A stretch of DNA of 64,000 bases from Plumapathes pennacea (lineage: Eukaryota; Cnidaria; Anthozoa; Antipatharia; Myriopathidae), in NCBI GenBank assembly GCA_964036295.1, contig OZ038472.1, positions 12,520,068-12,584,067 of the forward strand, read 5' to 3'. The position numbers and the translations under genes are program-made. Every line of letters starts with the position of its first letter. Position 1 is the first letter of the stretch. The notes under the pieces are model-generated. The model saw nothing but the letters and a program-made list of their open reading frames with translations. It searched no databases and was not told the DNA's origin. This document shows positions 8,761-63,855 of the stretch, piece by piece.

Positions 8761-9755
8761 CATTACATAACTGCGGCCACAGTTTAAAGTTTATAACCCT
8801 TAAATTTCTATCCACTTCTTCAATCAAATCGTTTTGATTTGTGTCCATGCGTCACGGTTTGTACCATATTCCTTGTTTCTGTGAGGGAGGTGGCACCCAT
8901 ACTGCCGGTTTGAGAACTGAAGAGTAAAATGTCAGTAGCTGAAAAGGTTTAACACTGGTAATAATAGTATATGTGAATGTTCTTTTTTGATGCATTTAAC
9001 CCCCATTTAACACTGTTGATGTTCAGGTTTATTTGTGTGCCTTTAATTAATTGTATTAGCCGAGCCATAAATACAACTAAAAGAAGAAGAAGAGTTTCAA
9101 TTTAACAAATTGACGTTAATTTTTTATGTTTGTCTTCTTACTGGTGATGCTTTAATCCACAACCTTTTTGACAATGTTACGACGCGTTTCATCATCATTA
9201 AGAGGACAGACACATAAAACTGACGACAATCTGTTTTTTAAAATAACTCAAGCAATGAAGCGGGTAAAACACGCAAGAAAACTAGATTTTGTTCGATTTG
9301 ACCAAAATATTGTAAACAGCTTTTTCTCGCTTTCTTATTGGTTGAGTTTAAGATTCAAGACATTTCATTGGCCAAAAAGCGACAGCTTGATGTGAGCATT
9401 TGCGCACGCAAACTATATTTCTGTCAAAGAAGTTGGAAAGAAAGGAAACTAGACGTTTTTCAGCTGCGGTTTCCTCGACAATTTCAAGACAAAGCCCAAG
9501 GAGTTTTGCCCTGGGCACTTCTGGTTATCTACTTGAATTGCCAAAGGTCGCCTGTTAGCAGGAATTGAGGTAAAATTAAAGTTGAATCCACCTTCTCCGT
9601 CTAAATCACTGTCGTCAACGCTCAATCTTATTGATGATGAAAAGTAGACAATCAGAAAAGCGGGAAATGACATGTTATTGTAAAATAAGCATTCTCAAAA
9701 AAGAAAAAGAATTAAGTCATTGTGTATTTGAAAAAAGAAGAGAAATCGACCTTAC
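8761..9755 (-). other. 3' flank of the 10.0 kb gene
   Basis: Holds the conserved tail of lineage G genes plus about 440 bp (9090-9530) absent from unit C. The inserted part includes a decayed hairpin element near 9130-9230, related to the intact one at 32524. A third-exon acceptor is possible near 9075 or near 9560; I cannot choose between them. Confidence 0.4.
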
Positions 9756-10019
9756 CGCAGCACGTGGGAATTTGGGGATCCTTGCATAAAGAGGGGCCTG
9801 AGTCTCCAATCTGACCATTCGGGCAGGGTACTAAAGCAGAGCAGTACCCACCTTTTTTTACACATTTTTTATCTGTTGGCGGCGGAGAGAAGATAATATT
9901 GTCAACATATTGTCAACTTATAATTACCGCCAATATTTTCGTATATACAAAGTACCTTTTTGCGCGGCAATAGTCCCCACAAAAACCAGAAACAGGCAGA
10001 TGAAAATCCTTGCATTCAT
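9756..10019 (-). CDS. Secreted beta-defensin-like cysteine-rich peptide (lineage G, cationic)
   Basis: Exon 1 (10019-9956) encodes a 21-residue signal peptide: Met-Asn-Ala-Arg, a Phe/Leu/Val core, then Ala-Ala-Gln. A phase-1 intron of 83 bp (GT..AG) leads to exon 2 (9872-9756) with six cysteines, C-x6-C-x5-C-x12-C-x7-CC, close to the beta-defensin pattern. Six Lys against three Asp make the mature part net positive. The donor GTAAGG after exon 2 shows that a short third exon follows, but its position is unresolved. The 5' UTR acceptor at 10029-10030 joins the leader exon at 11209. Secretion and a possible antimicrobial or toxin-like role are inferred from family features; cysteine spacing cannot separate the two. 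The copy at 63592-63855 differs by one Ser/Pro change. Confidence 0.78.
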
Positions 10020-12640: not shown

Positions 12641-13263
12641 CATTATAAATATTCAGTCGCCTTTATAATAGATAAATTCCTTTTTGCCATCATTGATACG
12701 GATCATGGAATAACACAAGAACGTATACGTAATGCAAGACATTTTAGCGTTTCCGCGATGCAATGAAAAATACTTGTCATTTGTGAACAGCGAATTTTCG
12801 ACAAATTTCTCAACCCAGTTGATTTCACTGAAAAAAAAAATAGATATGGCCTTACAGAAAAACAAAAAAATTAGATATGGTACAGAGCGCACGTGCCAGG
12901 CATCAAACCTGATTCTTAATATTAGTTATTGCGGCTTTTTCTATTTCGTATGAAAGAAATAAGAACACTTGTTGGCCAGTTATGCGGAATCATATCAGCA
13001 CTTGGGAATTTCAACGAACGCTCCAGATGCATGACTGTAGAAATATTATATTTGGATATATGAACTTGCCAGTTTTCACTGTTGCTGGGCAATTCATTTG
13101 CGCGTTTTCTCTTGTTTTATGCAGTATACGTGATCACTTTTCAAAGTCGCCAAGCGTAGATCTGTTATATATTTATACGTACAATGGAATACGCCTAGCC
13201 ACTCGGAGAGATACACAGTTTTGCCCCCATGTCGGTGTGGAGGAGTAAAACGTATAATGTATA

Positions 13264-13377
13264 AACGTGAGGCTGGTGTTTACATGCCGATCAGCTTTAA
13301 GAATATTCGCATACAACACGCAAAACGTCAGACCACATTCTTTAATGAGTGACCCAGATCCACACCAACCTCACGTT
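13264..13377. mobile_element. 114 bp MITE
   Basis: AACGTGAGG...CCTCACGTT termini, with an interior shorter than the 120 bp form. Confidence 0.7.
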
Positions 13378-14540
13378 CAAACATCAGTGACAATGGTGCG
13401 CCATGTTTGTGCAGAAAAACATATCAATACCGAAATACATATTACTCGTTGATTGTTACAAGTATCCCCACATACAAGGTTTTCTTTGGTTTCCAACAGA
13501 GAGGAAACAACTCATTCTGAGGAGAAATTAATCCATTTCCTTATTATTATTCGCGCGCATGCTGAGTCAGCATCTGATAAACTATTTCCGTATGTATACG
13601 TATGCCAATTTTCGCGGGTACAAATACAAGTTTTCTTATTCCACACTTGATTTCATTATTAAACTATTTTCATCGCCAGCTCTTCTATTTGCCAGTTTTT
13701 AGGAAATAAAATTCAGTGCACGATCAAAATAAAGATATATTTTTATTATTATCTTCGCCCAGTTTATATGCAGAGTATCTGCAACAGCTGCGAGTCAATT
13801 ACTGCGGGTATTCACTAGTACTGCGGGATATTTGGTTGCGTCGTCAGCGGTTCTTTTACGTCCCCGTGCTTATTATTAGAGACGGGCCCACCATTTACGG
13901 GATCATCCGAGCCACGAGTAGAGAACCAGGTTTTTACACCAGTTTTTTTACTGACCCCCCGAGTCACCTGCGCCCTCGGCGTGCAAGGCGATCGTGCTGA
14001 CCGCCGTCTGGCCTCGGTGTATTTCACCGATGTATTGCAAATATACTTAGAACTTTCTAGAAGCATCAACATAGATAATATTCATCCCAACAGACGTCTT
14101 TTTGACCGAGACATGTTGGAAAGAAGCTGAAAATGGAAATTGCAATATTCACTTTCACCCTTTTACTCCCAAGCTCAAAGTACAGACTTTCCCAAATTTT
14201 TAAGGAGAAAATATATTGGCGGTGTAGTGAGAATTGTGACAGCTAAATCATTTTTTTTATATACCTGAGCAACTATTAGGTGGCAAATCCTTCATACTGT
14301 AGATATTATCTGGTGAAGGACCGAAGGAGAAATTTGAAGTTGATCACTCTTGGGAGTGAGATGTTTAAAATAAAATATTACTATTCATCGAATTCACTGA
14401 TAAACAAGGGTGTAAACTAGATGGTACTTTGACAACAAGTGATCTGCTTCTGAAGTTGGAATGCCGGTAAGAAGCACTCAAAAGTCTTAGGTATCTCTTA
14501 ATAACATCATACATTATTACTAGCTCAACTACCCAAGCGA
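13378..14540. other. Repeat-rich spacer, no gene recognised
   Basis: Contains a GC-richer segment at about 13850-14010 that resembles interspersed repeats and recurs at 26150-26370, 42950-43130 and 55240-55430. A segment at 14150-14350 ('actcccaagctcaaag', 'agtgagaattgtgacagctaaatc') recurs near 26480, 29000, 43260, 55560 and 58050. No promoter or exon is supported. Confidence 0.4.
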
Positions 14541-14965
14541 ATTTAGAGTGACTCCGTTGTAACTTCGGGCGCGCTCGTTCTTGACAAACTTTGGATCATA
14601 CCTTTTTGGATTTAACGCGGTTCCTATAAAACAATTAGCATCATCTTTTGCGGCCGTATATGGCTTTGAATTGGAGAAATAGTTGTTAGAATATAAGCTA
14701 CTCAAACAACTTAGGCGAAGCTGACGAGCTGTGTTGTTTATGAATACGAAATGAGCACGTATGGCCTTTCTTCGAAGAATTCGAACCCCAGAAGGAAGCC
14801 GAGTGATATGCGAGCCGGCGTCCCCAGGAGGAGAGAGAAGTTGTTGGATGCATTAGGGCAATGTTTTGAGCCACTTTCTTGGGATGTCCCAGAGCACCAC
14901 CAACTCCAACACGAACACCACACAGCATGCACGAACATGAACCGCCTCAATGACTTTTTTGCCAA
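14541..14965 (-). other. Unidentified exon-like frame, frameshifted in unit A
   Basis: Same sequence as the 114-codon frame at 43639-43983. Here a small insertion in 'ctcaaacaactt' (unit B has ctcagcaactt) shifts the frame near 14709. No family recognised. Confidence 0.3.
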
Positions 14966-15025
14966 ATGGTGATTTGTGTCATCGTAAGAAACTTATATCT
15001 TGTCATTTTATTGCAGTTCATCAAA

Positions 15026-15654
15026 ATGAATATGAAGTCTTTGTTTGTCTGCCTGTTGATGGTTTTTGCAGTGAGGGGATGATTTGTGTCCGACACTATG
15101 GCAAGGTATACTTCGTCTCCTTTGAACGTAAAAATATATTGACGATAATTTTTAGGTACAACACTAATTATTAAATGAACAATACTTTACATCTTTTCTC
15201 AATAAACAGATAAAGACTGTTATTTTGCTGGGGGCGGATGTTGTGTGGAAGTTAATCAGTGCCCGCCGAAAATGCGCATTGACGATCTTTGTGACAAAAA
15301 CAGGCCCCCGCAATGCTGTTATGGTAATATCAGTTTTCTTTGGGAAATTTTATTTGAGAATACCTGTATCTCTTTCTTTATTTCTTGGGACCCATTTGAT
15401 GGCTTGATCACAGTTTAACCATTTTTGACCCCCAAGCACAAAGTCCAACTACTCCCGGTTTTTTAAGATGAAACAAAGAAACTGAACGAGTGATGCAGTG
15501 AGAAACTGAAGGAGAAAATTAGTGTTGGTCACTCTTGGGAGGCCAATAAATGATCGAACCTGGGCCGTCACTATCATTACTGATCGACTAGCGCCGTAAG
15601 AAAATTATTACATGAAACCTTTGATTCTCTTTTCCTTTTACAGGCATCTCATAA
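15026..15654 (+). pseudogene. Frameshifted defensin-like peptide gene (lineage H, unit A)
   Basis: Same three-exon layout as the intact gene at 44145: exon 1 15026-15105, exon 2 15210-15323, exon 3 15644-15654. Exon 1 is 80 nt against 79 nt in the intact copy. The extra base lies just after the signal-peptide core and brings an in-frame TGA before the first mature cysteine. The downstream exons keep good splice sites and cysteine codons. Compared with the intact copy, exon 2 has six substitutions that change four amino acids and none that are silent. Loss looks recent. Translation from a later ATG would lack the signal peptide. Confidence 0.75.
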
Positions 15655-16139
15655 GAGCACCGCGACCTCACGTTACACCTCGAAATTTAAGGCCGGTCAA
15701 AATTTAAATGAAGCTGTTCTCCACAGTTTAATGTTATGGAAATTAAAGTAGAATGTTTTCTGTTACCAGACTTTGTACTATATAGTTTGTTCTACTTAAC
15801 GTCTTTTTAGGCCTTCTTGTGTTTCTTTCCTTTTCTGCTGTTTAAAAAACCACACTTGCATGGGGTTTATAATATGATACATCATCGTTACCAGGCTCAA
15901 TAATCTCTTGTCCGGCTTTACCCAGCCCCACACCCTCCCCCCCTCCCTTCCCCCACCCCCACCCCCTCCACTTTTGCACTGAACTGAAATGCCAAAGAAG
16001 AATTAAGACGTGCATGTGGTGCATCTTGAAAAGTGTACCACTGAATTTTCTGATAGAAAAATGCATACATTGATTAACAGATCTACGTTTGGCGACTTTG
16101 CAAAGTGATCATGTATTCAGCACAAACAAGAGGAAACGC
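15655..16139. other. 3' flank of the lineage H gene
   Basis: Includes a C-rich low-complexity tract at about 15927-15969 and no further gene. Confidence 0.4.
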
Positions 16140-17260
16140 GCAAAATGAATTACCTAGCAACGATGAAAACTGGCAAGTTCATATATCCAGTATAATATAA
16201 AAGTGATTCAGTATTTTTAATAGAAATGGCTGGCCAAAACACAACACAGTGAAGTACTGAACTTGCTGAATTATCCAAGGGTTTGGCGACAAAGAAAAGA
16301 CACTCAATTTGCCCAGCAACTAATTGGACTGGATGAAAATATACAGAGTATTGACACAATTTAGCATAAGGAAATAGAAATGTTTCTATTTTCTTATGTT
16401 CTTACATAAGATTTCTGTGCTTGTGCGTTTGTCTCTGGTAAAAAAACAGGATTAGGTTGAGAAAATAGCATTTCTTTTTGTACAGAGATAGCTTTCCAAA
16501 ACAGCACACACTTGAATAACTTGCTGAATAACTCAAGCGTTTGGTTGCTGTCGAACAGCGTTACAAATAAGGCCACCGAGTCAGGGAAAGGCGTTCCAAT
16601 ATTGCCCAGCAACTAGTTGGACTAGATGAAAGAGTGAGAATATTGAGACATGCATTAGCATAAGAAAGTGGACGTTGTTTTTATTTTCTTATAATCCTGC
16701 ATAAGATTCCTGTGTTTGTGCGCATGCCAATAGCAAAAACCAGCCTTAACTGTGCCGACAGAATAGGATTTTTTATAGAGATAGGTTTCCAAAACATCAC
16801 ACACTGAAGTAACTTGCTAAATAACCTTAAGCGTTTGGCGCCTGCCGAACAGCATTACAAATAAGGCACCAAGCCAGAGAAAGGTGTTCCAATATTGCCA
16901 AGCAACTAGTTGGACTAGATGAAAGTGTAAGAACTTAGTTCGATACATAAGCTTTGGCAAAAAGGGATGAAACTTTGCCATTTTCGTATGCTCCGGCATA
17001 CTAAAAGTTCTAGTTGTGCTTGTGCTTCCACTTGCGTCACGTTGGTTTACACTACTGAGCGCATAAAGTTTTTTTGTGCCTTATGTCACTAGTGAAGGCC
17101 AAAATCAATGGTGACTTAAATTTTGGCTATATGGCTATACAGTCTCCAAAAACATTGTAACTTGCTGAAAGACCAAAGTAACTGTGGGCCACTGCACCGT
17201 TACAAATAAAGCGCCAAGGCAAAGAAAGGCGTTTAAATTGCCTAGCAACTAGTAGGCACT
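16140..17260 (-). repeat. Satellite-like tandem array (~293 bp monomers)
   Basis: The clearest array. 'GCAACTAGTTGGACTAGATG' or variants lie near 16310, 16602, 16895 and 17238, with an internally deleted monomer starting near 16150. Confidence 0.75.
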
Positions 17261-17777
17261 GAAATACCAATAAGAGAGCTGTGAATTACTTCTACCCATT
17301 TTTTATTTTCGCGTAAGTTAATGATATTGCCAATGAACTGTTTCCAGTGCGTACTAGTTTTTCTATATATTTGCCTGGATCGGTGAGGAGGAGGGAAGCG
17401 CAAATGTGACAGTACTGTGGATATGCTGAATGTTGCTAAAAATGTGCTGACCGTAGTCTGGGGCTTCATTTTGGCATTCGATATATCCAGGATTCTATTT
17501 TCGCGTAAGATAATAACATTTTGGTGGCTATGGACTGCTCCCAGTGCATGCTAGTTTTTTTCTATTTATTTGCCTGAATCTGTGAGAAGGAGAGAAACAC
17601 AAACGTGATATTACTGTGGATATGCTGAATGTTGCTAAAAATGTGCTGACTCGTATTATAGCCTGGGGCCCACTAGCTATAAAAACACATTTATTTTAGC
17701 ATTCGATATATCCATATTAACCTAAATTTGAAAACAATGGTGTACAATTTTGTGTCAATCATTCTATTTCGGGCTAA
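17261..17777. other. Promoter-proximal spacer with duplicated segment
   Basis: The segment around 17300-17480 is repeated at 17500-17730 (both with 'gatatgctgaatgttgctaaaaatgtgctgac'), a local tandem duplication upstream of the promoter. The same duplication is present at 46420-46830. Confidence 0.5.
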
Positions 17778-17916
17778 CCAATAGGACGCCAGACTGACCC
17801 CATAAAAATAACGCCCTGATTACTCTCTTTACCATTTCTGGACCGACTGCGAAGCTGCATATCCTGCACCCGAGAAAACTTCAATCAAAAAGAAACCAAA
17901 CGAAGTAAACCAAACG
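17778..17916 (+). promoter_or_regulatory. Promoter and leader exon of the 18.6 kb gene
   Basis: CCAAT box 17778-17782, TATA-like CATAAAAATA 17801-17810, leader exon from about 17835 to 17916, donor GTGAGA at 17917. The 651 bp first intron ends at the tcaatag acceptor at 18567, nine bases before the start codon. Confidence 0.65.
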
Positions 17917-18576
17917 GTGAGAACTGAATTTTGATTTTTTTAATCATTCTATAACTATCGCAATTTTGAGAGTATTCCTTGCAATTTCTTGTGTGTACCA
18001 AGACCCGGCTATTAATGGCAGGCGGCAGTTCTAATGTCCATAATCAAAGCAAGGGCTCGTCTTGTGAATTACATTCAAAGTTGAACATTACCCACTAAAA
18101 TTACTTGTGTCGTGGTCATAGAGAGTGAGTATTTAACAAGTTTTGAAGGTAGTTGCAGATGGACAGCAGTTCTAAATAAATAAATAAATAAAAAGTCGTT
18201 CAAAACAAGTCACGTATACACTAGATTTTATCCACGGGGATTGCAGTCTTTGTACTGTTTTGTTATATTTTTTAGACTGTTTCGTGGGACTGACCACATT
18301 TATTAGTTATTATTCTATATATATTATTTATGTTAGAGTGATTTTAGAGTGTTATTCTATAGCTTGTTTTAACAGGAATTGCTTTTAAGTGGGATTTGAG
18401 TTTCCCCTACTGCTCTCCCTCTACTGGTGAAGAATTATCCTTTGTGATTTTTTAGTAGTAGTAACTCGTAGTTTTGAATCGAAAAGTGATAATAAACATT
18501 AAACATTTATAAGCAGACTTTGCCAATTGTTTAACTGATAAATTTATCTTTTCACATTATTCAATAGCTCATCAAA

Positions 18577-18984
18577 ATGAATGCAAGGATTTTCATTTAC
18601 CTGTTGCTGGTCTGTGTGGGTACTACTGCCGCACAAGGTACAGTTTCTCCATACGAAAATATTGGCGGTAATTATAAGTTTGAACACGTTGATTATTGCG
18701 TTAACAATATTGCATCTTCTCTTCGCCGGCAACAGATCAAGAATGTCAAAGTGAAGGTGGGTGTTGCCAATATGCTGGTACATTCTGCGGGAATGGTGAG
18801 ATTGGATATGGGTTCCCTCTTTGCCAAGATCCTCAGAGGCCCCTGTGCTGCGATGGTAATGTTGCCTTTATAATTATATTCTTGTTATACTCAATGACGT
18901 AATTGTCTTTGTTTGAGAACTCTTAATTGAAACTTTTCTTCTTCTTTATTAGTCTCATTTGATGGCTCAGCAATAACTTACTAG
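18577..18984 (+). CDS. Secreted beta-defensin-like cysteine-rich peptide (lineage G, acidic)
   Basis: Exon 1 (18577-18637) encodes a 20-residue signal peptide ending Thr-Thr-Ala-Ala-Gln. A 98 bp phase-1 intron leads to exon 2 (18736-18855), where the cysteines are C-x6-C-x6-C-x11-C-x7-CC plus one extra Cys just before the second, seven in all. Exon 3 (18953-18984), after a ttctttattag acceptor, adds a ten-residue tail and TAG, giving about 70 residues. The mature part is rich in Asp/Glu and net negative, unlike the minus-strand cationic relatives. Reading on through intron 1 changes the frame, so splicing is required. The orthologue at 47723 has identical exon 1 sequence but 15 of 39 exon 2 residues changed. 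Role inferred: secreted defence or venom-type peptide. Confidence 0.78.
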
Positions 18985-19783
18985 TTGAACTATATGGTTA
19001 ATTACAAACACACAAATGAACCTGGGCATCAACAGTGTTAAATGGGGGTTAGTGCATCAAAAAAGAACATTCACAAATTTTATTACCAGTGGTTAAAACT
19101 ATTCTACTCTTTCCACTTTTCAGGATGTAATTGAGGAGGACATGACTAAAACCAGATGTCTCGACGTATAGAGACACAAATCGAAAGGATTTGTTGAAAA
19201 AGCGGGTAGAAATTTAAGGGTTATAAACTTGAAACTGCGGCCGCAGTGTGTAATGGGAAAAAGAAATAAATGATTATCATCAGTTGAAAATCAAGGAGAT
19301 GTTTCCTTTGATGTGTCCTACTTAATATAACAAAGACAATGCCGTCTTACGGCCTTTTAGAGTTACTGTTGAAACAGTAAAAATGAAACTCGTACACTTT
19401 ATTATCCCTGGGGTGTATAATCTGACCACATATATTCTGCATCGTTTCCCGTATCCAGGTTCAAGACTCTTTTGTCAGTTTTTTACCCAACTCTGCACGT
19501 TCCTGATAATAGAGGAAGTCTGATAAATTAAATATTCCGTACGTATCCCAAGCCAGGGGTCTGAAACCCTTCGTCTTACACAGCTTATTAGCCAATCAGA
19601 ACGCGCGCAGTATCATAGTTGTTTTATAAAACGCCTTAATGAATTCCAGCTGCGATCACCCTCACACTTCCCGCAAAACCCTGAGCTTTTTACCTTTTTG
19701 AGGTAAAATAAATAAATGAATAAAAAATACAGTCTAATACCTAACCATGCGGAAAGCACTGTCACGTGGGCTTCTGAGCCCAC
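18985..19783 (+). other. 3' flank of the 18.6 kb gene
   Basis: Inverted counterpart of 37330-37900. Contains the tail conserved after all lineage G genes. No further gene. Confidence 0.4.
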
Positions 19784-27775: not shown

Positions 27776-28474
27776 TCATACACCTGTAAAATGAAAAGGT
27801 GCCATTTGATTTTAATATTCTATAATAGTAATAATTGTAGTTGGTGGGGGGAGGGGGGGGGGGGGGGGGAGCGGGGGAGGGGCGGACAAGGAAGAAAGAG
27901 GGCGCGCGGGGGACGACGGGACCCCGTGCGCTTGATTTTCTCTCCTCCATGCCTCCGCGCACGTTAAACGCAATAACCAGTGTACTCTGATACTCTGAGA
28001 AGCCTTTGCGGAGGAGAGAGGGCATTCTGAATTTAACCGTGATCAAACAGGTAGTAATAAAAGAAGACACAGATCAATCATTCTCCATCACATAACCACG
28101 CCGACTTGGGTAAAAAGTACTTTTGCGACTTGTGTGTGAAACCATTCAATATAAAGTAAGACAAAAAAAAAAAAAAGGATATTACCATAGCAGCATATCG
28201 GACGTGTTTTGTTGTGACAACTGTCTACAATCCGCATAGTGCACGGGCAGCCCCTTGCGACAGTGACACAAGATCCCCCGGCTTGGTTGCACTGAATATC
28301 TGTCCATGGATGAAAGAAATGTAATTTATCGCTCATTGCAGTTGAAACTGAAATACATTACTGCTAAAAAGTTTTAAATTTCAAAGGAGACGAAGTACCT
28401 GCTGGGTCCCACTGTTGAGCAATACTTAACACCACATAAAGCATCAACAGGCAGATGAAAGTCTTCATATTCAT
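27776..28474 (-). CDS. Secreted beta-defensin-like cysteine-rich peptide (lineage H)
   Basis: Exon 1 (28474-28399) encodes a 25-residue signal region starting Met-Asn-Met-Lys and ending Gln-Gln-Trp-Asp-Pro-Ala. A 99 bp phase-1 intron leads to exon 2 (28299-28186) with C-x6-C-x6-C-x9-C-x7-CC and one extra Cys two residues after the third. Exon 3 (27783-27776), after a cattttacag acceptor, adds Gly-Val and TGA, giving about 65 residues. The 402 bp second intron holds a G-rich run. The 5' UTR acceptor (cattctacag) lies 14 bases before the start codon, so a leader exon lies upstream but is not identified. Mature charge is near neutral. The unit B copy differs in exon 2 by one silent change. Role inferred as for the other family members. 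Confidence 0.78.
27843..27885 (+). repeat. G-rich run in intron 2
   Basis: An almost pure G tract able to form a G-quadruplex. The unit B homologue (about 56916) is much shorter, so length is unstable or hard to assemble. Confidence 0.7.
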
Positions 28475-37993: not shown

Positions 37994-38275
37994 TTACCAT
38001 GGAATAGCGCAGCACCAGGGCGAATGAGGATTACAAAACTCGGGGTATTTTCCAATAAGTTCGCCACAAAAACCAACATCAAATTCGCAACGCCCACCCA
38101 TTTCCTCACATGTTGGCACTGTTGCCGGCGGAGAGAAGATGATATTGTTAGCGCAATAATCAGAGTGTTCAAACTTATAATTACCGCCAATATTTTCGTA
38201 TGGAGAAACTGTACCTTGTGCGACAGTAGTACCCACACAGACCAGCAACAGGCAGATGAAAATCCTTGTATTCAT
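37994..38275 (-). CDS. Secreted beta-defensin-like cysteine-rich peptide (lineage G, acidic)
   Basis: Exon 1 (38275-38215) encodes a 20-residue signal peptide. Intron 1 is 38214-38119, 96 bp with GT..AG. Exon 2 (38118-37994) has six cysteines, C-x6-C-x6-C-x10-C-x6-CC, and ends Trp-TAA: the bases that form the donor in relatives (G|GTAATG) here also make a stop. The spliced product is about 61 residues. Because the intron is a multiple of three without a stop, the unspliced mRNA also reads through as 93 residues with an extra segment between signal and cysteine parts. The mature part has six Glu/Asp against two basic residues. Intron 1 of the 5' UTR (38285-40483) is filled with insertions. Confidence 0.75.
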   Translation of the reverse strand: MNTRIFICLLLVCVGTTVAQGTVSPYENIGGNYKFEHSDYCANNIIFSPPATVPTCEEMGGRCEFDVGFCGELIGKYPEFCNPHSPWCCAIPW

Positions 38276-41830: not shown

Positions 41831-42389
41831 TTAACCTTTATAGTAGATACGTTTCCTTTTTTGCCATCATTAATACGGATCATGGATGAACACAACAACG
41901 TATACCTAATGCAAGACATTTAGTGTTTCCGCGCGATGCAATGAAAAATACTTGTCATCTGTGAACAGCGAATTTTCGGCAAATTCTCAACCCATTTGAT
42001 TTCACTGAAAACAAGAAACAAAAAATAAATAAATAAATAAATATTGCCTTACAGAAAAACAAAAATATTAGATATGGCGTTACAAAACGCACGTGCCGGG
42101 CACCAAACCTGATTCTTAATATTAGTTATTGCTTTTTGTATATCGTGTGAAGGAAATAAGAACACTTGTCGGCCAGTTATGCGGAATCACATTAGCAGTT
42201 GGGAATTTCAACGAACGCTCCAGATGCGTGAATGTAGAAGTATGATATTTGGATATATGAACTTGCCAGTTTTCACTGTTGCTAGGCAATTCATTTGCGC
42301 GTTTTCTCTTGTTTTACGCCTAGTCCCTGGGAAAGATACAGTTTTGCCCCTGTGTCGGCGTGGAGTAATACTTAAACATATAATGGAGA

Positions 42390-42503
42390 AATGTGAGGTT
42401 GGTGTGCACATGTCGATCAGCTTTAAGAATATGCGCATCCGACACGCGAAACGTCAGACCACATTCTTTAGTGAGTGATCTAGATCCACACCAACTTCAC
42501 GTT
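42390..42503. mobile_element. 114 bp MITE, diverged terminus
   Basis: The left end reads AATGTGAGG instead of AACGTGAGG; the right end has ACTTCACGTT. Confidence 0.65.
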
Positions 42504-43638
42504 CAAACATCAGTGACAATGGTGTACCATTTTTGTGCAGAAAAACATATCAATACCGAAATACATATTACTCGTGGATTGTTACAAGTATCCCCACATA
42601 CAAGGTTTTCTTTGGTTTCCAACAGAGAGGAAGCAAGTCATCCTGAGGAGCAATTAATCCATTTTTTTATTATTATTCGCGCGATGATGAGTTAGCATGT
42701 CTGATAAGCTATTTCCGTATGTATATACGTATGCTAATTTTCTCGGATACAAATACAAGTGTTCTTATTCCACACTTGATTTCATAAACTATTTTCGTCG
42801 CCACCTCTTCTATTTCCCAGTTTTTAGAAAATAAAATTCAGTGCACGATCAAAATAAAGATATATTTTTATTATTATCTTCGCCCAGTTTATATGCAGAG
42901 TACCTTCAACAGCAGTGAGTCAATTACTGCGGGATATTTGGTTGCGCCCTCAGTGGTTCTTTTACGTCCCCGTAGTGCTTATTATAATAGACGGGCCCAC
43001 CATTTACGTGGTCATCCGAGCCACGAGTAGAGAGCCAGGTTTTTACACCTCAGTTTTTTGCTGACTTCCCGAGTCACCTGCGCCCTCAGCGTGAAAGGTG
43101 ATCGTGCTGACCGCCGTCTGGCCTCGGTGTATTTCACCGATGTATTGCAAATATACTTAGAACTTTCTAGAAGCATCAACATAGATAATATTCATCCCAA
43201 CAGACGTCTTTTTAACTGAGACATGTTGGAAAGAAGCTGAAAATGGAAATTACAATATTCACTTTCACCCTTTTACTTCCAAGCTCAAAGTACAGATTTT
43301 CCCAAATTTTTAAGGAGAAAATATATTGGCGGTGTAGTGAGAATTGTGACAGCTAAATCATTTTTTTATATACCTGAGCAAACTATTAGGTGGCAAATCC
43401 TTCATACTGTAGATATATATCTGGTGAAAGACCGAAGGAGAAATTTGAAGTTGATCACTCTTGGGAGTGAGATGTTTAAATAAAATATTACTATTCATCG
43501 AATTCACTGATAAACAAGGGTGTAAACTAGATGGTACTTTGACAACAAGTGATCTGCTTCTGAAGTTGGAATGCCGGTAAGAAGCACTCAAAAGTCTTAG
43601 GTATCTCTTAATAACATCATACATTATTACTAGCTCAA
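42504..43638. other. Repeat-rich spacer, no gene recognised
   Basis: Parallels 13378-14540 in unit A. Confidence 0.4.
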
Positions 43639-43983
43639 CTACCCAAGCGAATTTAGAGTGACTCCGTTGTAACTTCGGGCGCACTCGTTCTTGACAAACT
43701 TTGGATCATAACTTTTTGGATTTAACGCGGTTCCTATAAAACAATTAGCATCATCTTTTGCGGCTGTATATGGCTTTGAATTGGAGAAATAGTTGTTAGA
43801 ATGTAAGCTACTCAGCAACTTAGGCGAAGCTGACGAGCTGTGTTGTTTATGAATACGAAATGAGCACGTATGGCCTTTATTCGAAGAATTCGCACCCCAG
43901 AAGGAAGCCGAGTGATATGCGAGCCGGCGTCCCCAGGAGGAGAGAGAGGTTGTTGGATGCATTAGGGCAATGTTTTGAGCCAC
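43639..43983 (-). CDS. Unidentified 114-codon open frame
   Basis: Starts at an ATG on the minus strand and ends at TAG before the lineage H 5' region. The frame also extends upstream of this ATG. Composition is Ser/Asn/Lys-rich with no signal peptide, membrane segment or recognised motif. It lies inside a segment (43590-44100) that interrupts sequence otherwise conserved upstream of lineage H genes, so it may be a fragment of another gene carried in by insertion. The unit A copy has a frameshift. Coding status is doubtful. Confidence 0.3.
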   Translation of the reverse strand: MAQNIALMHPTTSLSSWGRRLAYHSASFWGANSSNKGHTCSFRIHKQHSSSASPKLLSSLHSNNYFSNSKPYTAAKDDANCFIGTALNPKSYDPKFVKNECARSYNGVTLNSLG

Positions 43984-44144
43984 TTTCTTGGGATGTCCCA
44001 GAGCACCTCCAACTCCAACACGAACACCACACTACATGCACGATCATGAACCGCTTCAATGACTTTTTTTTCCAAATAGTCAATGGTGATTTGTGCATGT
44101 TATCGTAAGAAATTTATCTTGTCATTTTATTGCAGTTCATCAAA

Positions 44145-44772
44145 ATGAATATGAAGTCTTTGTTTGTCTGCCTGTTGATGGCTTTTGCAGTGAGAAGTGA
44201 TTTGTGTCCTACACCATGGCAAGGTATACTCCGTCTCCTTTGAACGTAAACATATATTGACGATGATTTTTAGTTATAACACTAATTATTACATAAATAA
44301 TACTTTACATCTTTTCTCAATAAACAGATAAACACTGTTATTTTGCTGGGGGCGGATGTTGTGTGGAAGTTAGTCAGTGCCCGCCGACTATGCGCATTGA
44401 CGATCTTTGTGACAAAAACAGGCCCCTTCAATGCTGTTATGGTAATATCAGTTTTCTTTGGTAAATTTTATTTGAGAATACCTACATCTCTTTCTTTATT
44501 TCTTGGGACCCATTTGATGGCTTGATCACAGTTTAACCATTTTTGACCCCCAAGCACAAAGTCCAACTACTCCCGGTTTTTTAAGATGAAACAAAGAAAC
44601 TGAACGAGTGATGCAGTGAGAAACTGAAGGAGAAAATTAGTGTTGGTCACTCTTGGGAGGCCAATAAATGATCGAACCTGGGCCGTCACTATCATTACTG
44701 ATCGACTAGCGCCGTAAGAAAATTATTACATGAAACCTTTGATTCTCTTTTCCTTTTACAGGCATCTCATAA
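44145..44772 (+). CDS. Secreted beta-defensin-like cysteine-rich peptide (lineage H, intact)
   Basis: Exon 1 (44145-44223) encodes Met-Asn-Met-Lys, a hydrophobic signal core, then a short mature start with one Cys and Trp-Gln. A 104 bp phase-1 intron leads to exon 2 (44328-44441) with C-x6-C-x6-C-x9-C-x7-CC and an extra Cys beside the second, so eight in the mature peptide. Exon 3 (44762-44772) completes Gly-Ile-Ser-TAA, 67 residues in all. The 5' UTR acceptor (attttattgcag) lies ten bases before the start codon; the leader exon is not identified. The 320 bp second intron includes an interspersed repeat. Mature charge is slightly negative. The unit A copy at 15026 is inactivated by a one-base insertion. 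Confidence 0.8.
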
Positions 44773-45260
44773 GAGCACCGCGACCTCACGTTACACCTCG
44801 AAATTTAAGGCCGGTCAAAATTTAAATGAAGCTGTTCTCCACAGTTTAATGTTATGGAAATTAAAGTAGAATGTTTTCTGTTACCAGACTTTGTACTATA
44901 TAGTTTGTTCTACTTAACATCTTTTTAGGCTTTCTTGTGTTTCTTTCCTTTTCTGCTGTTTAAAAAACCACACTTGCATGGGGTTTATAATATGATACAT
45001 CATCGTTACCAGGCTCAATAATCTCTTGTCCGGCTTTACCCAGCCCCACACCCTCCCCCCCTCCCTTCCCCCACCCCCACCCCCTCCACTTTTGCACTGA
45101 ACTGAAATGCCAAAGAAGAATTAAGACGTGCATGTGGTGCATCTTGAAAAGTGTACCACTGAATTTTCTGATAGAAAAATGCATACATTGATTAACAGAT
45201 CTACGTTTGGCGACTTTGCAAAGTGATCATGTATTCAGCACAAACAAGAGGAAACGCGCA
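44773..45260. other. 3' flank of the 44.1 kb gene
   Basis: ATTAAA near 44861 is a possible polyadenylation signal. A C-rich tract lies at about 45045-45087. Confidence 0.4.
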
Positions 45261-46375
45261 AAATGAATTACCTAGCAACGATGAAAACTGGCAAGTTCAT
45301 ATATCCAGTATAATATAAAAGTGATTCAGTATTTTTAATAGAAATGGCTGGCCAAAACACAACACAGTGAAGTACTGAACTTGCTGAATTATCCAAGGGT
45401 TTGGCGACAAAGAAAAGACACTCAATTTGCCCAGCAACTAATTGGACTGGATGAAAATATACAGAGTATTGACACAATTTAGCATAAGGAAATAGAAATG
45501 TTTCTATTTTCTTATGTTCTTACATAAGATTTCTGTGCTTGTGCGTTTGTCTCTGGTAAAAAAACAGGATTAGGTTGAGAAAATAGTATTTCTTTTTGTA
45601 AAGAGATAGCTTTCCAAAACACCACACACTTGAATAACTTGCTGAATAACTCAAGCGTTTGGTGGCTGTCGAACAGCGTTACAAATAAGGCCACCGAGTC
45701 AGGGAAAGGCGTTCCAATATTGCCCAGCAACTAGTTGGACTAGATGAAAGAGTGAGAATATTGAGACATGCACTAGCATAAGAAAGTGGACATTGTTTTT
45801 ATTTTCTTATAATCCTGCATAAGATTCCTGTGTTTGTGCGCATGCCAATAGCAAAAACCAGCCTTAACTGTGCCGACAGAATAGGATTTTTTATAGAGAT
45901 AGGTTTCCAAAACATCACACACTGAAGTAACTTGCTAAATAACCTTAAGCGTTTGGCGCCTGCCGAACAGCATTACAAATAAGGCACCAAGCCAGAGAAA
46001 GGTGTTCCAATATTGCCAAGCAACTAGTTGGACTAGATGAAAGTGTAAGAACTTAGTTCGATACATAAGCTTTGGCAAAAAGGGATGAAACTTTGCCATT
46101 TTCGTATGCTCCGGCATACTAAAAGTTCTAGTTGTGCTTGTGCTTCCACTTGCGTCACGTTGGTTTACACTACTGAGCGCATAAAGTTTTTCTGTGCCTT
46201 ATGTCACTAGTGAAGGCCAAAACCAATGGTGACTTAAATTTTGGCTATATGGCTATACAGTCTCCAAAAACATTGTAACTTGCTGAAAGACCAAAGTAAC
46301 TGTGGGCCACTGCACCGTTACAAATAAAGCGCCAAGGCAAAGAAAGGCGTTTAAATTGCCTAGCAACTAGTAGGC
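45261..46375 (-). repeat. Satellite-like tandem array
   Basis: Counterpart of 16140-17260, almost identical. Confidence 0.75.
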
Positions 46376-46912
46376 ACTGAAATACCAATAAGAGAGCTGT
46401 GAATTACTGCTACCCATTTTTTATTTTCGCGTAAGTTAATGATATTGCCAATGAACTGTTTCCAGTGCGTACTAGTTTTTCTATATATTTGCCTGAATCG
46501 GTGAGGAGGAGAGAAGCGCAAATGTGACAGTACTGTGGATATGCTGAATGTTGCTAAAAATGTGCTGACCGTATTATAGTCTGGGGCTTCATTTTGGCAT
46601 TCGATATATCCAGGATTCTATTTTCGCGTAAGATAATAACATTTTGGTGGCTATGGACTGCTCCCAGTGCATGCTAGTTTTTTTTCTATTTATTTGCCTG
46701 AATCTGTGAGAAGGAGAGAAACCCAAAACGCGATATTACTGTGGATATGCTGAATGTTGCTAAAAATGTGCTGACTCGTATTATAGCCTGGGGCCCATTA
46801 GTTATAAAAACACTTTTATTTTAGCATTCGATATATCCATATTAACCAAAATTTGAAAACAATGGTGTACAATTTTGTGTCGATCTTTCTTTTTCGGAAT
46901 AACCAATAGGAC

Positions 46913-47040
46913 GCCAGGTTGACCTCATAAATATAACGCCCTGATCACTCTCTTTACCATTTCTGGACCGACTTCGAAGCTGCATACCCTGCACCCGAGA
47001 AAACTTCAATCAAAAAGAAACCAAACGAAGAAACTAAACG
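46913..47040 (+). promoter_or_regulatory. Promoter and leader exon of the 47.7 kb gene
   Basis: CCAAT 46913-46917, CATAAATATA near 46926-46935, leader exon ending at 47040, donor GTGAGA at 47041. The 673 bp first intron ends at the tcaatag acceptor at 47713 and contains an (AAAT)n tract longer than in unit A. Confidence 0.65.
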
Positions 47041-47722
47041 GTGAGAACTGAATTTTGATTTTTTTTTAATCATTCTATAACTATCGCAATTTTGAGAGTA
47101 TTCCTTGCAAGTTCTTGTGTGTACCAAGACCCGGCTATTAATGGCAGGCGGCAGTTCTAATGTCCATAATCAAAGCAAGGGCTCGTCTTGTGAATTACAT
47201 TCAAAGTTGAACAGTACCCACTAAAATCACTTTTGTCGTGGTCATAGAGAGTGAGTATTTAACAAGTTTTGAAGGTAGTTGCAGATGGACAGCAGTTCTA
47301 AATGAATAAATAAACAAATAAATAAATAAATAAATAAAAAGTCGTTCAAAACAAGTCACGTATACACTAGATTTTATCCACGGGGATTGCAGTCTTTGTA
47401 CTGTTTTGTTATATTTTTTAGACTGTTTCGTGGGACTGACCACATTTATTAGTTATTATTCTATATATATTATTTATGTTAGAGTGATTTTAGAGTGTTA
47501 TTCTATAGCTTGTTTTAACAGGAATTGCTTTTAAGTGGGATTTGAGTTTCCCCTACTGCTCTCCCTCTACTGGTGAAGAATTATCCTTTGTGATTTTTTA
47601 GTAGTAGTAACTCGTAGTTTTGAATCGAAAAGTGATAATAAACATTAAACATTTATAAGCAGACTTTGCCAATTGTTTAACTGATAAATTTATCTTTTCA
47701 CATTATTCAATAGTTCATCAAA

Positions 47723-48145
47723 ATGAATGCAAGGATTTTCATTTACCTGTTGCTGGTCTGTGTGGGTACTACTGCCGCACAAGGTACAGTTTCTCCATAC
47801 GAAAATATTGGCGTTAATTTTAAGTTTGAACACGTTGATTATTGCGTTAACAATATTGCATCTTCTCTTCGCCGGCAACAGATGGAGAATGCGAGAATCA
47901 TGATGGGTGTTGCCAATATGTTGGTGGGGAATGCAGATATGGTGAGATTGGATATGGGTCCCCTCTTTGCAAAAATCCTGCGATGCCCCTGTGCTGCGAT
48001 GGTAATGTTGCCTTTATAATTATATTCTTGTTATACTCAATGACGTAATTGTCTTTGTTTGAGAACTCTTAATTGAAACTTTTCTTCTTCTTTATTAGTC
48101 TCATTTGATGGCTCAGCAAACTTACTAGTTGAACTATATGGTTAA
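47723..48145 (+). CDS. Secreted beta-defensin-like cysteine-rich peptide (lineage G, hypervariable exon)
   Basis: Exon 1 (47723-47783) is base-for-base identical to exon 1 at 18577. A 98 bp intron (two differences) leads to exon 2 (47882-48001), spacing C-x6-C-x6-C-x11-C-x7-CC with an extra Cys before the second, seven in all. Compared with the unit A copy, exon 2 has 25 substitutions in 120 bases, changing 15 of 39 residues with one fully silent codon. All cysteines and a Gly-Glu-Ile-Gly-Tyr-Gly core are kept. Exon 3 (48099-48145) lacks two bases relative to unit A, so the tail is longer (15 residues) and the protein about 75 residues. The mature part is net acidic. Confidence 0.78.
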
Positions 48146-48847
48146 TTACAAACACACAAATGAACTTGGGCATCAACAGTGTTAAATGGGGGTAGTGCAT
48201 CAAAAAAGAACATTCACAAATTTTATTACTAGTGGTTAAAACTATTCTACTCTTTCCACTGTTCAGGATGTCTTTGAGGAGGACATGACTAAAACCAGAT
48301 GTCTCGACGTATAGAGACACAAATCGAAAGGATTTGTTTGTAAAAGCGGGTAGAAATTTAAGGGTTATAAACTTGAAACTGCGGCCGCAGTGTGTAATGG
48401 GAAAAAGAAATAAATGATTATCATCAGTTGAAAATCAAGCAGATGTTTCCTTTGATGTATCCTACTTAATATAACAAAGACAATGCCGTCTTACGGCCTT
48501 TTAGAGTTTCCCGTATCCAGGCTCAAGACTCTTTTGTCAGTATTTTAACCAACTCTACACGTTCCTGATAATAGAGGAAGTCTGATAAATTAAATATTCC
48601 GTACGTATCCCAACCCAGGGGTCTGAAACCCTTCGTCTTACACAGCTTATTAGCCAATCAGAACGCGCGCAGTATCATAGTTGTTTTATAAAACGCCTTA
48701 ATGAATTCCAGCTGCGATCACCCTCACACTTCCCGCAAAACCCTGAGCTTTTTACCTTTTTGAGGTAAAATAAATAAATGAATAAAAAATACAGTCTAAT
48801 ACCTAACCATGCGGAAAGCACTGTCACGTGGGCTTCTGAGCCCACAA
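48146..48847. other. 3' flank of the 47.7 kb gene
   Basis: Matches 18985-19783 except that part of the block near 19360-19450 is missing. No gene. Confidence 0.4.
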
Positions 48848-49439: not shown

Positions 49440-50040
49440 GTGAGTACTATTTAATATTTTAGTTTATCGTACATATTAGTTCGATAAACTAAAATATCCC
49501 CATAAAAGACAACTTCCCCCCTCCCGCCTTCGTCTGTTAAATGTTGAGGTGGCCTGAACCTGTTTTTCCAAACACATGCAAAATATTGTACAGAGGGGAG
49601 GGGGGGAGACAAATGGTTTCACATATTAGTAGTAGTTTATTTTATTTTCTAAAAAGTAAAGTAAAAAGTAAAGTATATTTATTTATACACGGTAAGTAAT
49701 TCAGCAGAGCTGGTGGGGCAGTGTTTTAAACTCAACGTAAATCTGTTAAAAATCCCAACTGGTCGAAGGCTAATCAGTTGGCTATTTACATAGTGTGGCT
49801 GAGGATTTGAATATTGCCGAAGGTCGCTTTAGCAAGATATGAGATAAAATTGAAGTTGAATTCACCTTCGTCCAAATCACTGTCCTCAGTGATAGAGGTT
49901 ATGTGTCTGTCCTCTTATTGATGATGAAAATTAGCCAATCAAAAAGAGGGGAAAGTGACTTGTTATTGTAAAATAAGCATTCTCAAACAAAATAGAATTA
50001 GGTCATTGAGTATTTGAAGAAAGAAGAAAATTAACATTAC
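49440..50040 (-). other. 3' flank of the 50.3 kb gene
   Basis: Contains a short segment (about 49480-49620) with a G-rich run that unit A lacks. No downstream TADA1 exons are seen. Confidence 0.4.
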
Positions 50041-50322
50041 CGCAGCACGTGGGAAAACGAGGATCCTTGCATAAATCCTTGCCTTTACGTATTTCATAAC
50101 CCTGCTGGCAGGGTAATATCTGAGTGCAATACCCACAAAGTTTCTTACACCCTTTATCTGTTGCCGTCAGAGAGAAGATGCAATATTGTCAACGCGATAA
50201 TCGAAGTGTTCAAACTTATAATTTATTAACCGCCAATATTTTCGTATAGAGAAAGTACCTGGTTGCGCGGCAGTTATCCCCACACAGACCAGCAACAGGC
50301 AGAGGAAAACCCTTGTATTCAT
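50041..50322 (-). CDS. Secreted beta-defensin-like cysteine-rich peptide (lineage G, strongly cationic)
   Basis: Exon 1 (50322-50259) encodes a 21-residue signal region (Met-Asn-Thr-Arg-Val-Phe ... Ala-Ala-Gln-Pro). Phase-1 intron 50258-50158. Exon 2 (50157-50041) has C-x6-C-x5-C-x12-C-x7-CC plus one extra Cys in the first loop, seven in all. Eight Lys/Arg against four acidic residues make it the most basic member. The donor GTAATG points to a third exon that is not resolved. The 5' UTR acceptor at 50332-50333 joins the leader exon at 51547. Unit A has lost this gene at about 22885. Antimicrobial activity is a reasonable but untested inference. Confidence 0.78.
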
Positions 50323-53074: not shown

Positions 53075-53422
53075 GGGACCTTAAAAAACAACATTTTCAT
53101 TTTCTTATGCCGTATTGATTATAATATGCTAATGTTCGGTATTCTTATACTTCCGTGTGTGATGGTTTGGAAAGCTATCTTTATACAAAAAGTTATTTTT
53201 CTATCACACTTTAACCTGGTTTTTGCTAGAGAAATACGCACAAAAATAGGGACCTTAAAAAACAACATTTTCATTTTCTTATGCCGTATTGATTATAATA
53301 TGCTAATGTTCGGTATTCTTATACTTCCGTGTGTGATGGTTTGGAAAGCTATCTTTATACAAAAAATTCTTTTTCTATCACACTTTAACCTGGTTTTGCT
53401 AGAGAAATACGTGCAAGCAGAG
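53075..53422 (+). repeat. 174 bp tandem duplication
   Basis: Two adjacent copies beginning GGGACCTTAAAAAACAAC; unit A has one. Confidence 0.75.
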
Positions 53423-53657
53423 GAACCTTAAATAAAAACACTTTCTGTTTTTATGTCATTACCTATAATATGCTAATGTATCGATATTCTTATAATTTCA
53501 TTTAGTCCAACAACTTGCAGGGCAATATTGGAACACCTTCCTCTTTCTTGGTGTATTTGTAGTGCTGTTTGACAGTCGCCAAACCCTTGGGTTATTCAGC
53601 AAGTTACTTCAAGGTGTGATGTTTTGAAAACTATATCTCTATACAAAAAAATATATA

Positions 53658-53806
53658 TTTTACCACAACACACTAGTTTCTCGCTCTCTGATTGGTCGAT
53701 TTACCGTGGTAAATAAGAGTCCAGACAACGATGCTGACGCCAGCATGTCACGTTTTGCAGCGAAATAAAACAAGTTTTCTGTATATTTCTAAATGTTGTG
53801 GTAAAA
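53658..53806. mobile_element. 149 bp inverted-repeat element (unit B copy)
   Basis: Same element and site as 24597-24745. Confidence 0.65.
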
Positions 53807-54671
53807 AACAAATTTCCACTGGTTTGCCGTGGTGTGGACTCCTGTTTATTTTGCTAGAGACATATGCACACGTATAGGAACCTCGTGCAGGAGCGTAAGA
53901 AAATAAGCACATTTCCATTTTCTTATTCTAAATTGTCTCAATATTTTGTATACTTCTATCTAGTCCATTTAGTTGCTGGGAAATTGGAGTGTCTTTTCTT
54001 TGTCGCCAAACGTTGTGATTATTCAGCAAGTTACTTCAGACCTCCATTATAAATATTCAGTCGCCTTTATAATAGATACATTTCCTTTTTGCCATCATTA
54101 ATACGGATCATGGAATAACACAAGAACTTATACGTAATGCAAGACATTTTAGCGTTTCCGCGATGCAATGAAAAATACTTGTCATCTGTGAACAGCAAAT
54201 TTTCGACAAATTTCTCAACTCATTTGATTTCACTGAAGAAAAAAAAATTAGATATGGCCTTACAGAAAAACAAAAAAATTAGATATGATACAGAGCGCAC
54301 GTGCCAGGCACCAAACCTGATTGTTAATATTAGTTATTGCGGCTTTTTGTATTTCGTATGAAAGAAATAAGAACACTTGTTGGCCAGTTATGCGGAATCA
54401 TATCAGCACTTGGGAATTTCAACGAACGCTCCAGATGCATGACTGTAGAAATATTATATTTGGATATATGAACTTGCCAGTTTTCATTGTTGCTGGGCAA
54501 TTCATTTGCGCGTTTTCTCTTGTTTTATGCAGTATACGTGATCACTTTTCAAAGTCGCCAAGCGTGGATCTGTTATATATTTATACGTACAATGGAATAC
54601 GCCTAGCCCCTCGGAGAGATACACAGTTTTGCCCCCGTGTCGGCGTGGAGGAGTAAAACGTATAATGTATA

Positions 54672-54785
54672 AACGTGAGGTTGGTGTTTACATGTCGACC
54701 AGCTTTAAGAATATTCGCATACAACACGCAAAACGTCAGACCACATTCTTTAGTGAGTGACCCAGATCCACACCAACCTCACGTT
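54672..54785. mobile_element. 114 bp MITE
   Basis: Perfect AACGTGAGG/CCTCACGTT ends. Confidence 0.7.
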
Positions 54786-55735: not shown

Positions 55736-55870
55736 TATCGCGGAGGTCATGGGTTCGATTCCCGTTAAAGCTCGGGTCTTTTTTCCCGGGCTATATTTGC
55801 AACTGCTTAAGTTGCTTCATAACTGTGAAGGTCGCTTTCACTGTCATTCTCTATCTACAGTTGATATTTG
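55736..55870 (+). mobile_element. tRNA-derived SINE (unit B copy)
   Basis: B-box-like GGTTCGATTCC at 55752-55762. Same site and truncation as 26647. Confidence 0.6.
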
Positions 55871-58232: not shown

Positions 58233-58778
58233 CAGGATTAACGCCGGAAATTCTTTCTCTCGACCTCTCTGCCAATTAACTGGAAGGTTTCGTTCGAAGA
58301 TGGATTGAAAAACCTTTGTTCCAGCTTAAAATATATCAAGGAAGTCGCTGTTGACGAAACCTTTACATTTTCATGCTTACAAATGACAAGAAGGTTTAGA
58401 CCTAATCTTGCAGGATTGGCCTAGTACTGTTGCTTTTAAAAACCGGGCCCTGGCCCTCAGGGACCAGGGTAGCCAATACACAACACTGGCACGAAATACG
58501 TCGTACTTTGAACTACGTATATCAATCGGTTATGAGCTGCATAGAACGGCTGATATTGCCTACATGCATTACTTACCTTTTTTGCTGTTACCAAACAATC
58601 GAGAGCCGTGTACAAGTATGTTACTCGCGTCTGAACTTATTTTCTTTTTTCACTGTTGCGGGGCTCAGGTGGATCTGCTCTTTCGGAGTGAAAACGAAAC
58701 GCATTCAGGCTTGCACGCTATTGGTATAAATTCTAAAAGGTTGACACAAAAATGGTACACCATTGTCACTGATGTTTG

Positions 58779-63010: not shown

Positions 63011-63591
63011 TTACTTTCCCATTACATAACTGCGGCCACAGTTTAAAGTTTATAACCCTTAAATTTCTATCCACTTCTTCAATCAAATCGTTTTGATTTG
63101 TGTCCATGCGTCACGGTTTGTACCATATTCCTTGTTTCTGTGAGGGAGGTGGCACCCATACTGCCGGTTTGAGAGCTGAAGAGTAGAATGTCAGTAGCTG
63201 AAAAGGTTTAACACTGGTAATAATAGTATATGTGAATGTTCTTTTTTGATGCATTTAACCCCCATTTAACACTGTTGATATTCAGGTTTATTTGTGTGCC
63301 TTTAATTAATTGTATTAGCCGAGCCATAAATACAACTAAAAGAAGAAGAAGAGTTTCAATTTATCTACTTGAATTGCCAAAGGTCGCCTGTTAGCAGGAA
63401 TTGAGGTAAAATTAAAGTTGAATCCACCTTCTCCGTCTAAATCACTGTCGTCAACGCTCAATCTTATTGATGATGAAAAGTAGACAATCAGAAAAGCGGG
63501 AAATGACATGTTATTGTAAAATAAGCATTCTCAAAAAAGAAAAAGAATTAAGTCATTGTGTATTTGAAAAAAGAAGAAAAATCGACCTTAC
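63011..63591 (-). other. 3' flank of the 63.8 kb gene
   Basis: Matches A 8760-9090, then A 9530-9755. Confidence 0.45.
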
Positions 63592-63855
63592 CGCAGCACG
63601 TGGGAATTTGGGGATCCTTGCATAAAGGGGGGCCTGAGTCTCCAATCTGACCATTCGGGCAGGGTACTAAAGCAGAGCAGTACCCACCTTTTTTTACACA
63701 TTTTTTATCTGTTGGCGGCGGAGAGAAGATAATATTGTCAACATATTGTCAACTTATAATTACCGCCAATATTTTCGTATATACAAAGTACCTTTTTGCG
63801 CGGCAATAGTCCCCACAAAAACCAGAAACAGGCAGATGAAAATCCTTGCATTCAT
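63592..63855 (-). CDS. Secreted beta-defensin-like cysteine-rich peptide (lineage G, unit C)
   Basis: Exon 1 63855-63792, phase-1 intron, exon 2 63708-63592 with C-x6-C-x5-C-x12-C-x7-CC. Differs from the unit A gene at 9756-10019 by one Ser-to-Pro change before the fourth cysteine. The third exon is unresolved. Promoter and leader exon lie beyond the window end. Confidence 0.78.

Follow-up and report, generated by a model that had tools for sequence, protein, structure and literature searches.

Results

A tandem array of small cysteine-rich genes

The window, which is the whole stretch of 64,000 nucleotides that we analysed, spans C11:12520068-12584067 of a 290-Mb assembly with 24 contigs. 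The assembly size and the spliced genes point to a eukaryote. It harbors a tandem array of duplicated segments with a period of about 29 kb; segments 24089-32193 and 53148-61225 match to about 96%. The small cysteine-rich genes of the array belong to types G, F, D, E, H, and R and are located on both strands. The GC content of the window together with 40 kb downstream is 39%, and the CpG observed/expected ratio is 0.90. The duplicated blocks that contain the two G genes of the window and the exons of types D, E, H, and R are located as follows.

13190..19364, plus strand: duplicated block with G18577; partner 42315-48508, offset 29.1 kb, 95.6% identical
42315..48508, plus strand: duplicated block with G47723; partner 13190-19364
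9754..9873, minus strand: D-type exon 2, six cysteines with beta-defensin spacing
63590..63709, minus strand: D-type exon 2, second copy of the window
50039..50158, minus strand: E-type exon 2, a relative of D
15209..15325, plus strand: H-type exon 2; further copies at 44327-44443 and outside the window
28184..28300, minus strand: R-type exon 2; also present at 57233-57349 and upstream of the window

A third G copy was found at window-equivalent position 72444 (C11:12592511), 8.4 kb past the window.

At position 5644 of the minus strand, reading downward, a family signal exon is followed by a cysteine-rich stretch, with no clear intron between them and no long frame spanning both; this is probably a decayed copy. 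Two long overlapping open stretches of 409 and 391 codons (19992-22333, minus strand) look like an insertion of a Penelope-type reverse transcriptase into the array. An open frame at 35044-35541 (plus strand) is repetitive, with many R, E, Q, and K residues, and has a relative in L018; it resembles a fragment of a mobile element. At C4:5724463-5765292 and L023, at least 11 GFP-like matches, nine of them with equal score, lie in tandem. These have 34-35% identity to an anthozoan red fluorescent protein, and their open frames of 183-243 codons suggest that the genes are intronless.

Structure of the G and F genes

The G genes have a signal exon, an exon for most of the mature peptide, and a short predicted last exon. 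The inverted paralogue F38275 ends its frame within exon 2.

47723..47783, plus strand: G47723 exon 1, signal peptide MNARIFIYLLLVCVGTTAAQ and first base of codon 21; identical to 18577-18637
47784..47881, plus strand: G47723 intron 1, 98 bases, GT..AG
47882..48001, plus strand: G47723 exon 2, encodes seven of the mature cysteines; differs from G18577 at 25/120 sites
48002..48266, plus strand: G47723 intron 2, 265 bases; 3 differences to G18577
48267..48277, plus strand: G47723 exon 3, predicted coding part; completes G, then C, L, stop; eighth cysteine
18577..18637, plus strand: G18577 exon 1
18736..18855, plus strand: G18577 exon 2
19124..19134, plus strand: G18577 exon 3, predicted coding part; C, N, stop
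38215..38275, minus strand: F38275 exon 1, inverted paralogue; 4/61 differences to 18577 and 47723, 7/61 to 72444
37994..38118, minus strand: F38275 exon 2, six cysteines; own stop ends the frame

The open frame of G47723 exon 2 continues beyond a good donor (gtaatg) at 48002, and a pyrimidine-rich acceptor (cag ending at 48266) follows 265 bases after the donor. Behind this acceptor, all three G copies have the codon for an eighth cysteine, one further residue, and a stop (GCL, GCN, GCN). F38275 has neither the extra cysteine of exon 2 nor a cysteine codon at the exon 3 position. This joint lack of both cysteines in F38275, which has its own stop, speaks for the third exon of the G genes and for a fourth disulfide. 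The third exon is probable; its splicing and the disulfide partner of the eighth cysteine are predictions from the sequence.

The R-type (28184-28300) and H-type (15209-15325) exons 2 encode seven cysteines each, and the best-looking predicted exon 3 of these types has no cysteine. The odd number suggests a dimer or a missed exon.

Divergence between G18577 and G47723 is concentrated in the mature coding sequence

The initial annotation had claimed that the genes at 18577 and 47723 share exon 1, intron 1, and the upstream sequence almost fully and diverge in the cysteine-rich exon, and our counts agreed with its numbers. Exon 1 showed no difference over 61 bases, intron 1 two differences over 98 bases, and the 5' flank one difference over 400 bases. 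Exon 2 showed the 25 differences in 120 bases, by which 15 codons change their residue and one is changed only silently; the cysteines are retained. Intron 2 (3/265) and the 3' flank (3/204) are also highly similar, as opposed to the coding part of exon 3 (2/9). When the 42 mature codons were scored (residues 21-62, the last residue omitted), 15 of them changed the residue. The last residue, encoded in exon 3, is N in 18577 and L in 47723.

The value of 25/120 for exon 2 compares to 171/6371 in the remaining aligned duplicated block (binomial p = 1.8e-15). No other window of 120 sites in the block is as divergent; the runner-up, at the left edge of the block, has 20 differences. The two differences in the nine coding bases of exon 3 also stand out against intron 2 plus 3' flank (6/469, p = 0.008). 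Since the predicted exon 3 differs in its last residue, the divergence follows the coding sequence.

Near-identical array units are difficult to assemble, and the differences could in principle stem from an assembly or haplotype-collapse artefact in the repeated array. The open frame, the cysteines, the splice sites, and the exon limits are kept in the three G copies and in F, unlike what random errors would produce, and we consider an artefact highly improbable.

The excess in exon 2 is restricted to some lineages of the array

The exon 2 divergence was not limited to the two G genes of the window. The third G copy, 72444, and the inverted copy F38275 showed the same excess. The differences in exon 2 compared to the introns were 25/120 vs. 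5/363 for 18577-47723, 28/120 vs. 27/348 for 18577-72444, and 27/120 vs. 25/348 for 47723-72444. For F against the three G copies, they were 52-53/114 vs. 26-32 of 346-348. Every one of the six pairwise comparisons among the G copies and F thus gave a divergence of exon 2 that was 3 to 15 times that of the introns (Fisher p 2e-5 to 5e-19).

Copies of the R type showed no exon 2 excess (1-2/111), and neither did the two D copies of the window (D9757-D63593, 1/126). Exon 2 of the H copies (5-7/115) was not more divergent than the sequence just beside it. The upstream D copy differed in exon 2 at the level of the flanks (8/117 and 45/642), and its exon 1 plus intron 1 was unusually similar (1/145 vs. 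45/642 in the flanks, p = 0.001). In this comparison of the D copies, the exon 1 end was set one base short, which shifts at most one site between adjacent features. The similarity of D exon 1 and intron 1 is another sign of local homogenisation. D and E, in turn, differed at 41/117 sites of exon 2 compared to 63/326 sites of intron 1 and 3' flank combined, again an excess (p = 9e-4). Given these mixed controls, with R, D, and H lacking the pattern, the effect is not common to all array genes. With the R and D genes lacking the pattern, the case for the initial interpretation is weaker than proposed.

On the minus strand of C11, at a distance of 1.2 Mb (11278641-11305614), lies a second small cluster with part of the signal exon in common and with exon 2 peptides of six cysteines. 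Within this cluster (C11 11.279-11.306 Mb), far1 and far2 differed at 20/98 sites in exon 2 vs. 5/94 in intron 1. As the 3' flank is not alignable between these two (156/299), and as far3 equals far2 in exons 1 and 2 and intron 1, this cluster is a weak replicate.

Selection on the mature peptide

In the mature peptide, dN/dS was above 1 in one class of codons, and not significantly so in the average. Average omega of the mature part was 2.07, 2.40, and 1.67 for the three G pairs (p 0.22-0.36 vs. 1) and 1.72 for the three copies jointly (p 0.22 vs. 1), i.e., not significantly above 1. The comparison of site models M1a and M2a on the three alignable G sequences supported a selected class (2dlnL 13.8, 2 df, p = 0.001), with 31% of the codons at omega of about 13; with three sequences, chi-square p-values are approximate.

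By the counting method, replacement changes exceeded the expectation from the intron rate in all three G pairs (p 8e-17, 9e-6, and 3e-5), although conversion of introns would lower intron divergence and so inflate this exon/intron contrast as a sign of selection. The mature codons fell into two kinds. At 22 codons the residue is the same in all three G copies, and at 21 of these, which include seven of the eight cysteine codons, not even the third base differs. In the variable codons, two or even all three bases are often different. Exon-targeted hypermutation as the source of variation would fit the synonymous changes that the variable codons also carry. It does not account for a silent change in only one of the 22 same-residue codons, nor for the few differences in the introns adjoining exon 2, and there is very little chance that it is correct.

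We compared synonymous with intron divergence. Equality was rejected for 18577-47723 (p = 0.0045), and was not rejected for 18577-72444 (p = 0.2, which leans on a free fit at the boundary with dS 0) or 47723-72444 (p = 0.11). For 18577-47723, 4.2 silent changes were counted on 25.2 sites. Since most of them lie within codons that also change the residue, multi-nucleotide mutation could inflate dS.

These data bear on the view of a recent burst without exchange, in which the roughly 25 exon 2 changes were all fixed by positive selection following the 29-kb duplication, against about 1% of change at neutral sites. The changes track the coding sequence including exon 3, 15 codons with replacement stand against one purely silent codon, and a silent change in only one of the 22 codons with unchanged residue points in the same direction. 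The rejection of a dS equal to the intron rate (p = 0.0045) speaks against this view, as does the strength of selection that it requires, with omega of about 24 on average or 118 in about one third of the codons.

Exon 2 and its surroundings differ in age

The exon 2 distances among the three G copies are about equal (25, 27, and 28), and the flanks group 18577 with 47723 as close sisters. Outside exons 2 and 3, eight sites were unique to 18577 or 47723 compared to 74 unique to 72444; inside these exons, the ratio was 23 to 14 (p = 6e-9). These counts omit the sites at which each copy has its own base (1 and 4) and take the 5' flank from 47323 on. Thus, exons 2 and 3 do not share the close grouping of the flanks. 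Forcing the intron genealogy on the mature codons was significantly worse than free branches (2dlnL 19.8, 3 df, p = 2e-4) and needed an omega of 118. An equal star was not rejected for the mature codons (2dlnL 1.8, p = 0.62). As the exons 2 are about equidistant while the flanks of two copies are near-identical, exon 2 appears older than its surroundings, and we infer exchange between copies. We read this as old mature exons that now lie in recently equalised surroundings.

The same results make selection alone after the duplication unlikely; the exon 2 distances to the much older third copy are hardly larger (25 vs. 27 and 28), and the unique-site contrast also speaks against it.

The two bases of intron 1 at 47814 and 47820 are T and T in both 47723 and 72444, and G and A in 18577 and F. 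The D and E genes, read by eye, also have the other state, and we judged the bases common to 47723 and 72444 to be derived.

These bases, together with the star genealogy and the age discordance, would also fit a single replacement, in which conversion placed the exon 2 of a diverged donor, now lost or on another haplotype, into one of the two copies, with little or no recent selection. The phase 1-1 exon lies between near-identical introns, which would mask the ends of a tract. According to the initial annotation, an unlinked paralogue with a match to exon 2 at 47.7 kb would favour conversion and count against its reading; a search of the assembly revealed none. The search with G exon 2 in its own genome gave three matches at the DNA level and three at the protein level, all of them array copies; with the exon 2 of F, the search retrieved this exon alone. 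Such searches score no more than the top candidates of a first look and might overlook a donor that has diverged. As no donor was found, no conversion tract was demonstrated outright. Apart from the donor absent from the DNA and protein matches, neither copy is clearly closer to the third copy (28 vs. 27), and a single event leaves unexplained both the exon 2 excess in the other five pairs and the exon 3 differences beyond the conserved intron 2. We regard such a single replacement as quite unlikely.

Nature of the encoded peptides

The consensus of 12 exon 2 peptides shows four single cysteines, GG before the second of them, and then a CC pair. This is the cysteine order of beta-defensins, for which PMC6627431 gives six cysteines, four single ones followed by a C-terminal CC pair. 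Exactly six cysteines with a final CC are present in the D types and in F38009; types G, H, E, and R have one or two cysteines beyond six.

A search with Pfam PF00711 detected no member at the cut-off, and one of the 12 peptides matched with an E value of 0.19. The unrelated family Tsg was also matched by one of 12 (E 0.11). All Pfam matches stayed below the threshold (Haemocyan_bet_s E 0.17, Tsg E 0.11, Defensin_beta E 0.19). In a large protein collection, no homologue was found for one protein or for the alignment of the 12 members. The PDB profile search with the 12 exon 2 peptides (E up to 10) retrieved only crotamine (E 0.19) and gallinacin-11 (E 8.5); a weak PDB match to RPGR (E 0.3) was also seen. 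Neither of the two profile matches is a SCRiP, and the searched set may lack the SCRiP entries 7LX4 and 5LAH (codes from PMC10892658).

The model of a D-type peptide had low confidence (pLDDT 65). Twelve of its 13 Foldseek matches were defensins or crotamine, the other one was unrelated, and every E value lay above 0.7. The G47723 structure model (pLDDT 46) was dropped. The net charge of the G peptides is -5, -5, and -2, and that of D and E is +2 and +4. No exon 2 or exon 3 peptide that we read contains the CCC triplet that SCRiPs have near the C terminus. We use the term beta-defensin-like for a resemblance, membership being unproven; a beta-defensin fold, with a short helix or turn and a small antiparallel sheet, is weakly supported.

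Discussion

Probable selection and exchange in the G/F lineage

The initial annotation had suggested diversifying selection or exon replacement. Both were supported, selection by the site model and exchange by the star genealogy as opposed to the flanks, and neither alone fits well. We therefore favour, as the probable explanation, a defensin-like array in which diversifying selection and gene conversion act together. The array would consist of tandem genes for secreted, disulfide-rich, beta-defensin-like peptides, with a signal exon, a mature-peptide exon, and a short last exon. The mature exons of the G/F lineage would have been pushed apart by diversifying selection at about one third of the codons, while a set of glycines and most of the cysteine codons stayed fixed. 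Separately, recombination between array copies, as non-allelic gene conversion or unequal exchange, may have either equalised the signal exon, introns, and flanks or moved the mature exon between copies. The outcome would be 18577 and 47723 as an old pair of mature exons in near-identical surroundings. The exchange events are deduced from the sequence of one haplotype, with which either direction, exon moved or flanks overwritten, would agree. The peptides may be used for defence or as venom.

A more far-reaching version, which we think improbable, is that the short introns act as homology arms and that frequent short conversion tracts swap whole mature exons between near-identical gene shells. 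If this were true, germline cassette exchange would diversify one defensin-like lineage while other lineages of the array stay constant.

The two G copies offer a clean natural test, since the divergence is confined to an exon of 120 bases, is nearly absent from the adjoining introns, and is back in the coding remnant of nine bases. With a few more haplotypes, the G locus could separate selection from gene conversion. The defensin-like family, for which no relative was found, is offered for functional work.

Comparison with known systems

No title or abstract opening among the literature matches listed describes this array; subscription journals were mostly outside the scope of the search, and this is not evidence of absence. 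Beta-defensins pair their cysteines as C1-C5, C2-C4, and C3-C6. In vertebrate beta-defensin clusters, the signal is conserved and the mature peptide is diverged. The array shares with these beta-defensins (PF00711) the arrangement of signal and mature exon, the clustering of genes, and, in the D and F types, six cysteines with a final CC. In contrast, the G types have eight cysteines when the predicted exon 3 is counted, and a net charge of -2 to -5.

The cysteines of conotoxins show position-specific codon conservation. According to PMC3862624, introns are conserved within a conotoxin superfamily, and three exons are present in eight of nine superfamilies studied, similar to the G genes. The introns reported there are longer than 3 kb, compared to 98 and 265 bases here.

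The SCRiPs of corals and sea anemones are also small, secreted, and often anionic, and have been linked to the beta-defensin motif (PMC2652719, PMC10892658, and PMC6627431). They have eight cysteines, like the G types, and C-x6-C and CP motifs, which occur in the D, H, and R types. They differ by the CCC triplet; the G types have CC-x2-C. SCRiP subfamilies are described in PMC10892658 as mainly under purifying selection, with one of the four under diversifying selection.

Myticin-C of mussels is probably encoded by two tandem antimicrobial peptide genes, the mature peptide is the most variable part of the cDNA, and recombination or conversion has been invoked (PMC3164099). However, its introns vary more than its exons, the reverse of our array. 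Among the SA8 genes of one sea anemone species, one exon is highly variable, as stated in PMC10210398.

The likeness to venom and defence peptide arrays that the initial annotation had pointed out is borne out by snake three-finger toxins, in which exon-restricted divergence with conserved introns is known. In this process, termed ASSET, profound differences are restricted to exons, introns are more than 85% similar, and the signal exon is conserved (PMC2711939). Exon-limited divergence is thus already known in kind, and here it occurs in genes for which no relative was found. In ASSET, segments are switched inside exons, and the authors of PMC2711939 judge recombination to be unsatisfactory as an explanation. 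In our array, unlike in ASSET, the differences extend across the mature coding part, and the star genealogy points to exchange.
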